Source of the DNA: Mucilaginibacter terrae
Lineage (GTDB): Bacteria > Bacteroidota > Bacteroidia > Sphingobacteriales > Sphingobacteriaceae
DNA: 64,000 nt
Direction: 5' to 3'
NCBI RefSeq assembly: GCF_031951985.1
Contig: NZ_JAVLVU010000001.1
Coordinates: 3,844,001 to 3,908,000 of the forward strand
The notes under the pieces are model-generated. The model was not told the origin of the DNA, searched no databases, and saw nothing but the letters and a program-made list of their open reading frames with translations. This document shows positions 32,666-40,881 of this stretch, one piece after another. A program made the translations under genes and the position numbers. Within the stretch, counting starts at the first letter, position 1. Each line of letters starts with the position of its first letter.

Positions 32666-33121
32666 ATGCAATTACCCATTAAGCTCACCAAAGAGAGCCG
32701 GCCCATAACCGGTATTGCCGCAGCGCTGCTCGTGGCCCTGTTTGTCTATACTGCGCTGAGTAAGTGGTTCGCTTTTCAGGAATTCAAAGTTCAGATGCGT
32801 GTCCAGGCCGTTCCGGGTTGGGCCGCAGATTTTTTGACCTGGACGCTGCCCACAACGGAACTGATCGTTGCCCTGTTGCTCATTACCTATAAGTGGCGCC
32901 TGATTGGATTTTGGCTATCCCTGGCACTGATGACATCGTTTACAGGCTATATCATGCTGGTGCTAGTAGGATACTTTGGCCGAGTACCTTGTTCCTGCGG
33001 TGGCGTACTCAAAAGCATGGGCTGGCAAACCCATCTTTTCTTCAATCTCTTTTTTTTGCTGTTAAGTATCCTCGGTATATATCTTGTTAACAGGGAAAGG
33101 AGGATGATTGGCACAGTCTGA
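32666..33121 (+). CDS. MauE/DoxX-like membrane protein
   Basis: 151 aa with four membrane segments. Between segments 3 and 4 lies RVPCSCGGVLKSMGWQTHLFFN, the CxCGG motif of the MauE family (methylamine utilisation/vitamin K-linked redox). In Bacteroidota, MauE-like proteins often sit near TlpA-type thioredoxins and SusCD genes, as here. Probably passes electrons to or from a periplasmic disulfide system. The 206 bp upstream (32460-32665) show no gene. Confidence 0.8.
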   Translation: MQLPIKLTKESRPITGIAAALLVALFVYTALSKWFAFQEFKVQMRVQAVPGWAADFLTWTLPTTELIVALLLITYKWRLIGFWLSLALMTSFTGYIMLVLVGYFGRVPCSCGGVLKSMGWQTHLFFNLFFLLLSILGIYLVNRERRMIGTV

Positions 33122-33265
33122 ATCCAGGAACTGCCGATGTCACTTACTATGTAGCTGACAACGGCCAGGACATGCCGAAAACCCGTCAATAGAGTAGGCA
33201 AATAAATGATCTGTTTTAAATTAAAGTTTTTAGGCAGCTTTTTGATGCAACAAAGCTCCGTTCTT

Positions 33266-33586
33266 ATGAAAAAGTTAAAAATCAATATCGCGCTTATCGC
33301 CATGATCGTCGCTGCAACAGCCGCATTCGCATTTAAACCAGCACCTGTGGTACAGGGTAAACATGCGCCTGTCAATTGGTTCTATAATGGCACGGCTTCG
33401 ACAGAAGCAGCCATAAAAGACGGTAATAACTGGGACCTTTCCAACGCCGGCTCTTGTTCGGCAGCCGGTACCAGGCCATGCGAGATCACGGTGGAAGATG
33501 TAAGCACCCAGGAAGATCTCGATGCTTACCTGGACGGTTTTACACGGGCTCAAATTCTCGCGATGTCACCTAACCGTAAGCCCTGA
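33266..33586 (+). CDS. DUF6520-like small secreted protein
   Basis: 106 aa from the ATG at 33266 (MKKLKINIALIAMIVAATAAFA); upstream Mets at 33206 and 33245 give no better start. Signal peptide, then APVNWFYNGTAS, and two cysteines in SCSAAGTRPC. This resembles the DUF6520 family of small exported proteins in Bacteroidota. The paired cysteines and the MauE neighbour suggest a disulfide-bonded product, function unknown. Confidence 0.72.
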   Translation: MKKLKINIALIAMIVAATAAFAFKPAPVVQGKHAPVNWFYNGTASTEAAIKDGNNWDLSNAGSCSAAGTRPCEITVEDVSTQEDLDAYLDGFTRAQILAMSPNRKP

Positions 33587-38223: not shown

Positions 38224-39537
38224 TTAAGGTTTTAGGTCATGAGTTGAACTTTTTTTGTCAGTGACGATGAGCATCAGCAACGATCTTTTGGCTTCACGGA
38301 GGTCGAGGCCATAAGGACGCAGTGCGTTCCGGATCTCCCTGATATCGGTCGAACCGGTCAGTGTCAGGTCAACCATACCGGTGTATCCGGTCTCGTCCAC
38401 GACGGGACGGTCGATACTTTCCAGGTCGCCTAATCGGATCACCAGCTGTTTCAACGGGCGGTTGCTGATCTGATACGGGGCAGACCGGAACAGCGTGTTT
38501 TTAGATATGCCGCCTTTTGACCGGAGCCGGTCTGTGCTGTCGGTACGCTGAAGAACATAACACGGCACTTCCTGCTTTTCGACCACCCCGGTATAGGCCG
38601 TCAGGGCGTTGAGTTCGCTGAGCATGGTTTCATATAACCGGTCCGCCTGTTCCTGCGGAAGGATCAGGTCGTAATTGTAGAGATTGTCCTGATCGTAACT
38701 GCCGTCACGGGCCTTGGAAAGATTTAAGGTGATCTTCGCCGGGTCCTGAACGTCAAGTATCATTCGCTTTTCGCTGAACTGCTGCTGCTGTTTATTAAAC
38801 AATTTGATCGCTGCCGTTTCATAAAGCCAAAGCAGGTTGCTGTTCGTCACCGCGATCCCGATGTTCTTACCGCCCTTTGTTCTGGGATGGTTGCCGGTGC
38901 CAAGGCCGCTGTAGTGCCCCTTGCTCAGAATGGAATACTTGACGATCTCGTTTCCCGGTGGGTACGCTTCATCCAGGAATAGCGGCCTGGTGGCGTCCAG
39001 GTCCTTTTTGGTCTGTACCTGTACGTTTTGACCGGACAGGGCTTTCTGAATATTGGCTTCATTCACCTCTTCTGCACCGGTGATCGCAACAACTTTGCCG
39101 GCACCGTCGATCATCACGTAATGCGGCAAGCCGGTATGCGGGAATAATCTGGACAGCAGTGTGTCAGCTACCGCTGTCTTGATATGGTATCGTTTCCCGT
39201 TGGCGGAAGTGAAAAACTGACGGATCTTGGGCACTGGTTCGTAGGCCACACCAAGTGCGAATACGCGGTCACCAAACTTTTGCTCCAGCGCTTCGATCCT
39301 GGGGAAGTTGATCAGGCAGGCAGAGCACCAGGTTGCCCAGAAGTCAAGAATGATCACCTTGCCTTTAAGGCTGGCGGTAGACAGATTGCCAGCTTTGTAG
39401 TTCAGCATGTTGCTGATCGTGATATCAGGGAATTGATCCCCTATTTTCAGGGGGGTGATGGGGGCTTTACTTTGAGCAATACACGGAAAGTTCAGGCAAA
39501 GCACAGCCATTACACTTAGTAAAGTGTTTTTTTTCAT
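38224..39537 (-). CDS. TlpA-family thioredoxin fused to a DUF3738-like domain
   Basis: 437 aa from the ATG at 39537 (MKKNTLLSVMAVLCLNFPCIAQ, signal peptide). Residues ~30-165 are a redoxin with active site WCSAC (FWATWCSACLINFPRIEAL). Residues ~190-430 resemble the DUF3738/TIGR03435 domain, with RPVVDETGYTGMVDLTL and a preceding LKQLVIRLGDLE. It ends 6 nt before susC and is co-transcribed. Likely a periplasmic disulfide reductase tied to the SusCD cargo. Confidence 0.85.
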   Translation of the reverse strand: MKKNTLLSVMAVLCLNFPCIAQSKAPITPLKIGDQFPDITISNMLNYKAGNLSTASLKGKVIILDFWATWCSACLINFPRIEALEQKFGDRVFALGVAYEPVPKIRQFFTSANGKRYHIKTAVADTLLSRLFPHTGLPHYVMIDGAGKVVAITGAEEVNEANIQKALSGQNVQVQTKKDLDATRPLFLDEAYPPGNEIVKYSILSKGHYSGLGTGNHPRTKGGKNIGIAVTNSNLLWLYETAAIKLFNKQQQQFSEKRMILDVQDPAKITLNLSKARDGSYDQDNLYNYDLILPQEQADRLYETMLSELNALTAYTGVVEKQEVPCYVLQRTDSTDRLRSKGGISKNTLFRSAPYQISNRPLKQLVIRLGDLESIDRPVVDETGYTGMVDLTLTGSTDIREIRNALRPYGLDLREAKRSLLMLIVTDKKSSTHDLKP

Positions 39538-39609: not shown

Positions 39610-39942
39610 TTATGTGCCCGGCGTAATGGACAGGGCTTGCGATCGGTAAGCCGAGGCGATGAAATCATTCAGCTGATCCAGGAATTCAGCGAAATCATTA
39701 TCCGTTATATCAGCTTTCCATTTGCAGTCGTTAACCGCCCAACATTGGAAGATCAGCATCGTAAAGTACCTTACTGTTTCCGGAGGGTAACGCTTAAAGA
39801 ACCGGGACATTCCCTGCATCGCTTGTCGTTTCTCCCGCTGTAATACTTTGATGCGCCTCCCGGCATAGTTGTCAGCGCAAAACTTTCGGCGAAAAAAAAG
39901 GCAAAGCATAGCCAGGATACGTGTCTGTATCAATTTTTTCAT
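39610..39942 (-). CDS. Small hypothetical protein of the SusCD operon
   Basis: 110 aa. Basic N-terminus with a short hydrophobic stretch (ILAMLCLFFRRKFC) followed by RRIKVLQREKRQAMQGMSRFFKRYPPETVRYFTMLIFQCW. No clean signal peptide. I do not recognise the family. It is in the same operon as the TlpA-DUF3738 gene (72 nt gap) and downstream of the 17-aa peptide gene, separated by a hairpin. Possibly a small membrane or regulatory protein. Confidence 0.65.
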   Translation of the reverse strand: MKKLIQTRILAMLCLFFRRKFCADNYAGRRIKVLQREKRQAMQGMSRFFKRYPPETVRYFTMLIFQCWAVNDCKWKADITDNDFAEFLDQLNDFIASAYRSQALSITPGT

Positions 39943-39985: not shown

Positions 39986-40026
39986 CGGCAACCGGAAAAC
40001 TAACTATTAACTGATGACGGTTGCCG
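39986..40026 (-). repeat. Intra-operon hairpin
   Basis: Perfect 9-bp inverted repeat CGGCAACCG / CGGTTGCCG around a 23-nt loop, 12 nt after the 17-aa gene stop and before the 110-aa gene. No U-run, so it may tune expression of downstream genes or protect the upstream message. Confidence 0.6.
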
Positions 40027-40037
40027 CGGTCCCTTAT

Positions 40038-40091
40038 TTAATCCGGCGGGCAGATGACCAGCAGCCACATGTTTGGCTTGTTATTGCTCAT
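40038..40091 (-). CDS. 17-residue peptide gene with a strong Shine-Dalgarno site
   Basis: ATG at 40091 to TAA at 40038 encodes MSNNKPNMWLLVICPPD. AAAGGAGG lies 5 nt before the ATG, which is unusual because Bacteroidota genes seldom use such perfect ribosome binding sites. It overlaps the end of the 87-aa gene by 11 nt. The peptide has a hydrophobic core (MWLLVI) and a C-terminal CPPD. It could be a secreted signal, a RiPP-like product or a leader controlling downstream translation. Translation is inferred from the SD site. Confidence 0.5.
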   Translation of the reverse strand: MSNNKPNMWLLVICPPD

Positions 40092-40344
40092 GGTCGCCTC
40101 CTTTCTGAACTTCTTGTTGTTGGGCGTATAGCGCGAGGGAAAGATCCTGAAGTTTGTGAATGAATAGGCCAAGCTGCTCAGGTGGGAGCTTATGGAGTTC
40201 GCGGCCGTCTCCGGTAAGGCCAAAGGCGTACCATTTTTGCAATTCCGCTTTGACTTCCGCAGAAGCTATCGTGCCGAAGATCTGCTCCAGCGCTTGCTCC
40301 GGGGAAATGAGGTGAACGGAATTTAATGTTTTGACTTTGGCCAT
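40081..40344 (-). CDS. Small hypothetical protein, first gene of the SusCD operon
   Basis: 87 aa, soluble, helical: MAKVKTLNSVHLISPEQALE followed by a Leu-rich helix (LHKLPPEQLGLFIHKLQDLS) and a Gln/Glu tail. Family not recognised. It follows a long structured 5' leader with a Bacteroidota -7 box and overlaps the 17-aa peptide gene. It may act on or sense the peptide. Reading frame and clear start support that it is real. Confidence 0.65.
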   Translation of the reverse strand: MAKVKTLNSVHLISPEQALEQIFGTIASAEVKAELQKWYAFGLTGDGRELHKLPPEQLGLFIHKLQDLSLALYAQQQEVQKGGDHEQ

Positions 40345-40357
40345 ACCTATGTTATAA

Positions 40358-40516
40358 AAGATGGGCAGCCAAAAATAACAAAGGCGTGGAACCCATCTTA
40401 AACGTAACTAGGTACCTAGGAGAACCTTGACCACGAATAAGTGAGCCCACGCCTTTGGCATGGGCATCTCACTTATCATCTCGTGGTCTTTTGAAATTTC
40501 CTAGGTTTCAGTTACG
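40358..40516 (-). ncRNA. Highly structured 5' leader RNA of the small-protein/SusCD operon
   Basis: Hairpin A is a rod of five nested stems with internal loops: CGTAACT/AGTTACG (40403-40409 with 40510-40516), CCTAGGA/TCCTAGG, GACCACGA/TCGTGGTC, TAAGTGAG/CTCACTTA and GCCCA/TGGGC (40445-40449 with 40461-40465), apex GCCTTTGGC. Hairpin B is AAGATGGG/CCCATCTT (40358-40365 with 40392-40399), ending just before the first gene. The loop of B (40379-40389) is perfectly complementary over 11 nt to the apex of A (40447-40457). This allows a kissing or switch structure. No known riboswitch class is recognised. Confidence 0.7.
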
Positions 40517-40551
40517 AGATAAAAGTTAATGCACTAATATTTTTAACACTA

Positions 40552-40559
40552 CAAAAGTA
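40552..40559 (-). promoter_or_regulatory. -7 box for the leader RNA and operon
   Basis: TACTTTTG on the minus strand matches the Bacteroidota TAnnTTTG box. Transcription would begin near 40545, ~30 nt before hairpin A, giving a ~200-nt leader. The -33 element is not a good match. Confidence 0.5.
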
Positions 40560-40602
40560 GCTTACTTACTATTAAGTATCGTAAATATAATAATAATTTC
40601 AT

Positions 40603-40626
40603 AATTGTGGTAGAACTGCCACAATT
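40603..40626. promoter_or_regulatory. Operator-like palindrome upstream of the XRE regulator
   Basis: Perfect 8-bp inverted repeat AATTGTGG / CCACAATT with an 8-nt spacer, between the divergent XRE gene and the leader promoter. Likely binding site of the XRE protein. Confidence 0.55.
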
Positions 40627-40659: not shown

Positions 40660-40881
40660 ATGAAAGAGCAGGAAGAAATACTTTTAAAACAGATAGGAAC
40701 GGCAATTTTTGATATACGAATCGAAAAAGGTCTAAGTCAAGAAGATGTAGCTGCTCGATGTGATGTTGATAGGGGCAAAATAAGTAAGATTGAGAACGGC
40801 TCTGCTAATTATTATATAACAACTTTAATCGAGCTTGCCAAAGGATTAGACGTAGATATAAGACGATTTTTTGATTCTTAA
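40660..40881 (+). CDS. XRE-family helix-turn-helix regulator
   Basis: 73 aa, a single Cro/C1-type HTH: IGTAIFDIRIEKGLSQEDVAARCDVDRGKISKIENGSANYYITTLIELAKGLDV. No extra sensor domain, so ligand or peptide sensing would need another partner. Divergent from the leader RNA/SusCD operon with a palindrome between, so it probably controls that operon or itself. The 275 bp downstream (40882-41156) show no gene. Confidence 0.88.
   Translation: MKEQEEILLKQIGTAIFDIRIEKGLSQEDVAARCDVDRGKISKIENGSANYYITTLIELAKGLDVDIRRFFDS

Follow-up and report, generated by a model that had tools for sequence, protein, structure and literature searches.

A structured leader RNA with covarying pseudoknots ahead of unrelated genes in Bacteroidota

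The 64,000-nucleotide stretch of Mucilaginibacter terrae DNA analysed here (the window, to whose positions all coordinates refer) contains, between a divergent helix-turn-helix gene and an operon, a sequence able to fold into a long rod and a second hairpin whose loops are complementary to each other, which raises the question of whether a functional RNA is made there, from which strand it is read, and how it might act on the genes behind it. The original prediction was an unclassified structured leader RNA at the head of an operon of tiny proteins plus TlpA/SusC/SusD, and it has largely been borne out. The operon does begin with ORFs of 87, 17 and 110 aa, which are followed by genes for a TlpA-like protein, SusC and SusD. 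Likewise, Rfam 15, searched at gathering and relaxed thresholds, returned no match for the window element or for 25 homologous loci, the best sub-threshold hits lying far below the cut-off, and no description of the leader was found in the literature, with subscription journals and preprints outside the scope of that search.

The leader occupies 40358-40547 on the minus strand and consists of a 5' hairpin (P0) on the side of the predicted start, a rod of 114 nt, and a 3' hairpin (P5) whose loop takes part in a pseudoknot (K1). The predicted -7 box, TACTTTTG at 40552-40559, is a match to the Bacteroidota consensus TAnnTTTG only; it lies ahead of the rod on the same strand, as had been claimed, at a spacing of 35 nt rather than 36. 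With the box placed as in Flavobacterium, where it spans -12 to -5 (PMC9723704), transcription is predicted to start near 40547. This is also where P0 (GUUAA...UUAAC, 40525-40547, minus strand) begins, a hairpin recognized by sequence comparison that is weak in the window and that relatives carry in a GCGA..CTTC/GAAG..TCGC version. As a side observation, CTACTTTTGTAGTGTTAAAAATATTA (40535-40560, minus strand), which covers the -7 box, recurs at 100% over 26 nt in one genome, while a dozen other genomes contain a 24-nt stretch overlapping it at about 96%, in each case away from the leader; judged by its letters, it is a dispersed promoter-like sequence.

The rod itself (40403-40516), delineated by folding and covariation, has the length and the five stems in series that were predicted, with small internal loops between the stems and G-U at a few of the pairs: P1a (40509-40516/40403-40410), P1b (40499-40505/40415-40421), P2 (40481-40488/40429-40436), P3 (40470-40475/40438-40443) and P4 (40457-40465/40445-40453). 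P5 (40358-40399), defined by the fold and an arm-matching test, pairs AAGAUGGG (40392-40399) with CCCAUCUU (40358-40365) and stops 13 nt short of the ATG at 40344, which confirms a second hairpin near the start codon. K1 joins the apex loop and the 3' strand of P4 (40447-40457, CCACGCCTTTG, core GGCGUGG) to a tail within the P5 loop (40379-40389, CAAAGGCGTGG, core CCACGCC), and the two sides are, as first noticed, exact reverse complements over 11 bases. Directly after the tail comes a U-rich run, UUUGUUAUUUUU (40371-40382), with the start codon about 26 nt beyond it. In addition, K2 pairs UCUCG just 5' of the rod (40515-40519) with CGAGA at the P2/P3 junction (40479-40483), and K3 (40411-40426) pairs GGU (40424-40426) with ACC (40411-40413) on the two flanks of the P1b 3' strand. 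K2, K3, the conservation of the U-run and the spread of the element across Bacteroidota before unrelated genes were all absent from the original prediction.

The fold is far more stable than expected from composition: on the minus strand, 40345-40530 has a folding energy of -72.6 kcal/mol, compared with -41.5 ± 4.1 kcal/mol in dinucleotide shuffles (z -7.6), and 0 of 200 shuffles equal it. The plus strand folds with about equal energy, and energy alone leaves the strand undecided because any long inverted repeat folds well on both strands. What speaks to the strand is the excess of G-U over A-C cells in three alignments of homologs (119:16, 114:10 and 166:7, summing to 399:33), which identifies the functional molecule as RNA of the minus strand.

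When 199 relatives were searched at the nucleotide level, about 30 clear homologs came up, nearly all from the same genus, and a genus alignment of 34 sequences over the core (40378-40522, minus strand) was the source of a covariance model. In this alignment, 96.2% of cells are paired and two-sided changes occur in 21 of 38 pairs; two-sided cells number 206 against 63 ± 7 in shuffles, and structures slid out of register reach only 37-44% paired. At class level, 60 distant copies have compensatory changes in all 35 modelled pairs, with 95.7% of cells paired against 29-41% in slid controls, an effect size that is somewhat flattered by the fitting of these copies to the model. K1, K2, K3 and P5 lie outside the covariance model and thus provide independent tests of pairing. 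For K1, 88% of cells are paired in the genus, a percentage that 0 of 500 shuffles attain, and four pairs have two-sided changes; moreover, the complementarity of each apex to its own tail scores 25.4 in 133 sequences, compared with 21.0 for swapped tails (sd 0.32) and 22.0 for the top of 2000 permutations. K2, with 96.5% of cells paired and two-sided changes in 3 pairs of the genus alignment, scores 14.0 with its own partner and 11.6 when permuted (sd 0.20), and K3, in which GGU/GGC pairs with ACC/GCC, scores 10.7 against 9.0 (sd 0.16; 134 sequences). Matched arms of P5 score 15.5 and mismatched arms 13.6 (sd 0.19), with a smaller excess for a control arm (12.95 against 12.52, sd 0.17). These permutation tests leave sequence relatedness in, and the effects hold in the genus and class sets separately. 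Certain unpaired A and U positions are conserved in the family as well. With pairings that covary across more than 130 homologs, the leader structure is far beyond chance. Thus, a covariance model from homologs, the check that had been suggested, brought out compensatory changes, and together with the G-U/A-C asymmetry these uphold a structured RNA on the strand that was claimed; the covariation of the 11-bp complementarity further supports it as a real pairing, kissing or alternative. Neither outcome named beforehand as refuting the prediction, a lack of compensatory changes or transcription of the opposite strand alone, applies.

One strand is common to P4, as its 3' strand, and to K1, as its 5' side, and the K1 tail competes with the 5' strand of P4; for this reason, an alternative pairing is preferred to a simple loop-loop kiss. 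The mean calculated stabilities of the two helices in the genus are nearly equal (-15.5 kcal/mol for P4 and -16.4 kcal/mol for K1). In copies whose P4 3' strand differs from GCGUGGG, the P4 partner generally follows and so does the K1 tail, which fits its own partner better than the consensus tail in 23 of 37 such cases and worse in 7, as exemplified by GGGGUGAGC/GCUUACCCC at locus L155 and UGCGUGAG/CUCACGCA at L186. P4 and K1 both stay complementary as the strand changes, the pattern of mutually exclusive pairings. A U-run (at least 5 T in 7 nt) follows the K1 tail in 159 of 177 homologs, compared with 42 and 39 of 177 at control positions, and a G+C-rich helix strand thus leads directly into it. 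A simple terminator scan found no local terminator hairpin at the leader on this strand; the strand that would serve as the 5' arm of a terminator is part of the rod apex, about 55 nt upstream.

How widespread is this RNA, and which genes does it precede? The copies found by the model are nearly all full-length and occur in 92 of 149 genus genomes, in 94 of 395 genomes and 56 of 196 genera of a class sample, and in 47 of 395 genomes of a phylum sample, some from other classes; the class and phylum counts are lower bounds set by strict filters, and the model E-values are rough. Three copies occur in the genome of the window and up to 7 per genome elsewhere. A DNA pattern for a common variant matches named genomes of Flavobacterium, Chryseobacterium, Bacteroides, Parabacteroides and Mucilaginibacter as well as others, and a few matches labelled Lentisphaerae or Pelotomaculum are metagenome bins that may be misbinned.

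In the genus, the leader sits between a divergent helix-turn-helix gene with an operator-like palindrome and an operon for a small protein, a 16-20-aa peptide, a TlpA-like protein, SusC and SusD. The first ORF in the window (87 aa, 40081-40344, minus strand), relatives of which follow most genus copies, has no match in Pfam, and the divergent gene (40660-40881, plus strand) encodes a 73-aa protein of the HTH_3/XRE type (Pfam HTH_3, 9e-12), whose likely operator, by its sequence, is the palindrome AATTGTGGtagaactGCCACAATT (40603-40626). Palindromes upstream of a number of relatives are longer than in shuffles. The genus loci L033, L043, L044, L052, L062 and others each have a long palindrome of their own before the divergent gene, with a different sequence at each locus, which would fit a co-evolution of regulator and operator.

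Copies across the class precede genes for DNA methylases, type IIG/III restriction enzymes, RibD_C proteins, response regulators, ECF sigma factors, lipoproteins, RteC and SusC/D, and no single shared downstream family was found, none exceeding 3 of 80 downstream proteins. Tying the element to the TlpA/SusC/SusD operon or to the XRE gene was rejected as a general account, distant copies preceding unrelated genes and often lacking a divergent helix-turn-helix gene; the leader is thus a device of general use that does not belong to SusC/D biology, and with downstream genes this diverse any signal that it reads is probably general too. In line with a leader position, 117 of 219 distant copies have a same-strand ORF of at least 75 aa 10-140 nt downstream, and the median spacing of 48 nt is too short for this ORF to have a promoter of its own. 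A retron ncRNA would adjoin a reverse transcriptase gene, but no reverse transcriptase is found among the scanned neighbours in the window or the 25 most frequent Pfam families of the 80 downstream proteins. Separately, copies at L132, L149 and L264, in or near Bacteroides, stand before a RibD_C-type gene in CTnDOT-like surroundings, and at L132 the rteR sRNA lies about 0.6 kb downstream of the copy, with a topoisomerase-like gene nearby.

We infer a regulatory role for the leader and propose, with a probability of roughly one half, that it is a cis-acting two-state device in which P4 alternates with K1 and its U-run, K1 ends transcription, and a signal sets the balance. The rod would fold first, bearing K2 and K3, and its apical strand GGCGUGG could then pair either with the 5' strand of P4 or with the last-made tail, CCACGCC. 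Should the tail win, K1 would place an 8-11-bp G+C-rich helix right before the U-run, as an intrinsic terminator needs; should P4 hold, polymerase would read through into the operon. Through K2 and K3, this choice would be coupled to the 5' end and the P1/P2 region, and these two pseudoknots are probably where a signal is read, be it a ligand, a protein or folding speed, while the divergent XRE gene and its operator probably control the promoter separately. Compensatory changes in every helix speak for such an attenuator, as do the tracking of each apex by its own tail, the near-equal stabilities of P4 and K1, the U-run and the short distance to the gene. Against it stand the lack of a local terminator in the simple scan, the distance of about 55 nt to the 5' arm that the terminator would use, and the conservation of P5; as the 3' arm of P5 comes after the U-run, this suggests a role once the U-run has been transcribed, for example in translation. 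Instead of two states, there could also be a single compact fold in which P4 and K1 are each partly formed at the same time. K2 connects the 5' end with a position about 20 bp up the rod, implying either that the rod folds back or that folding passes through a transient step; both occur in sensing RNAs.

The main alternative to attenuation, and a possible one, is translational control by way of P5 and K1: the same leader would act on translation or mRNA stability, with K1 kissing and P5 setting access to the initiation region, and with the U-run as a single-stranded loop or a protein site. The retention of P5, with an arm that follows the U-run, and its end only 13 nt ahead of the ATG in the window would then make sense, but the distance from element to start varies from about 20 to more than 120 nt, and control of this kind has no need for a U-run directly after a G+C-rich helix strand. 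A further rival is a compact riboswitch-type aptamer with an undescribed expression platform, in which P1-P4, K1, K2 and K3 would coexist round a ligand. Three covarying pseudoknots, the conserved unpaired A/U positions and K2, whose pairing of the 5' end with the P2/P3 bulge requires a folded-back rod, all suit an aptamer, as do downstream genes that are very diverse, a known trait of second-messenger riboswitches. Nevertheless, P4 and K1 use one strand and cannot both be complete, and gene context gives no hint of a ligand, and we consider this reading rather doubtful.

Two further readings take the element out of the mRNA altogether. A free-standing small RNA, or a rod cut by RNase III, could act in trans with the downstream gene there by chance, having its own promoter-like box and a possible 3' end in the U-run; about half of the distant copies lack an ORF of at least 75 aa within 140 nt, some of these lying at contig ends or having shorter or later ORFs. 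The same-strand ORFs that stand behind 117 of 219 distant copies, with a median gap of 48 nt, and the recurrence of the same gene types behind the element across genera, RibD_C-like ones for example, make this very improbable. A DNA-level element, such as a single-strand promoter of conjugative DNA, an attachment site or a mobile hairpin, is scarcely credible, even with several copies in mobile-element surroundings (L132 near rteR and one before an RteC gene). Here the 399:33 ratio of G-U to A-C, on which the DNA-only reading was rejected, is joined by pseudoknots that covary across 200 nt, by a -7-type box upstream with an ORF soon after, and by plasmid and phage records, in which a distant blastn search found no match at its sensitivity.

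The two-state leader favoured here resembles riboswitches and attenuators that set a terminator against an upstream helix in being a 5' leader with a covarying fold and pseudoknots, exclusive helices, a G+C-rich strand followed by a U-run, and a gene close by. It differs from them in that the 5' terminator arm would be the far-upstream rod apex rather than part of a local hairpin, and from riboswitches in having neither a known ligand nor a match to an Rfam riboswitch. Processive antitermination RNAs such as put and EAR, and other operon-leading RNAs, are also structured leaders before unrelated or long operons; unlike these, the element matches no Rfam model, and its U-run and strand exchange point to local control. 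Bacteroidales-1, Bacteroides-1, Flavo-1, Bacteroid-trp, rteR and 6S-flavo come from the same phylum, but none matches the element. A candidate motif in PMC11109978, whose terminator loop pairs with the preceding hairpin and is proposed to decide read-through, has a similar pseudoknot between terminator region and upstream hairpin; it differs in gene context, and the main text of that paper does not contain Bacteroid-, Flavobacteri-, Chryseobacterium or Pedobacter. Pending a ligand or protein partner, we regard the element as a new class of riboswitch-like leader RNA. More tentatively, it may represent a phylum-wide orphan class of riboswitch-like RNA with a pseudoknot as terminator, in which the tail captures the far-upstream rod apex and a general signal (a second messenger, stress or mobile-element status) sets P4 against K1.

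Other features recur near the operon. Behind the small protein, or behind the leader itself, lies an ORF of 16-20 aa at about 24 of 33 genus loci (L033-L065; 40038-40091, minus strand, in the window), and its peptide ends in (W)xLVICPPE/D or LLISPPE just before the stop; by analogy, Pro-Pro-Glu/Asp in this place resembles ribosome-stalling peptides such as TnaC. After the peptide, here and in relatives, comes a conserved hairpin (39986-40026, minus strand) whose loop reads TCAGTTAATAGTTAA, and beyond it a start-codon region in which short inverted repeats are conserved, ATGAAAAAA..ACGAT..ATCGT..GGC..GCTATGCC; hairpin and start region together look like a second attenuator. The start region ATGAAAAAA...TGGCNNYGCTNTGCCT is present at 39899-39942 and 39494-39537 (minus strand) and once more elsewhere in the genome, before unlike coding sequences, and could be a recombination joint. 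In most genus loci, MauE-like and DUF6520 genes (32666-33586, plus strand, in the window) are convergent to the TlpA/SusC/SusD operon, and the DUF6520 proteins are small and secreted-looking, with cysteines.

In summary, Rfam lacks a complex RNA whose three pseudoknots covary and which occurs in more than one-quarter of the sampled genera of its class, often in several copies per genome. To our knowledge, few RNA switches are known in Bacteroidota. The alignments and pairings offer direct mutational tests. If the element is a switch, it would be a common layer of control over accessory genes in a phylum of central importance to the microbiology of gut and soil, and if the phylum-wide orphan class is real, it would switch many accessory, horizontally moved genes in Bacteroidota.
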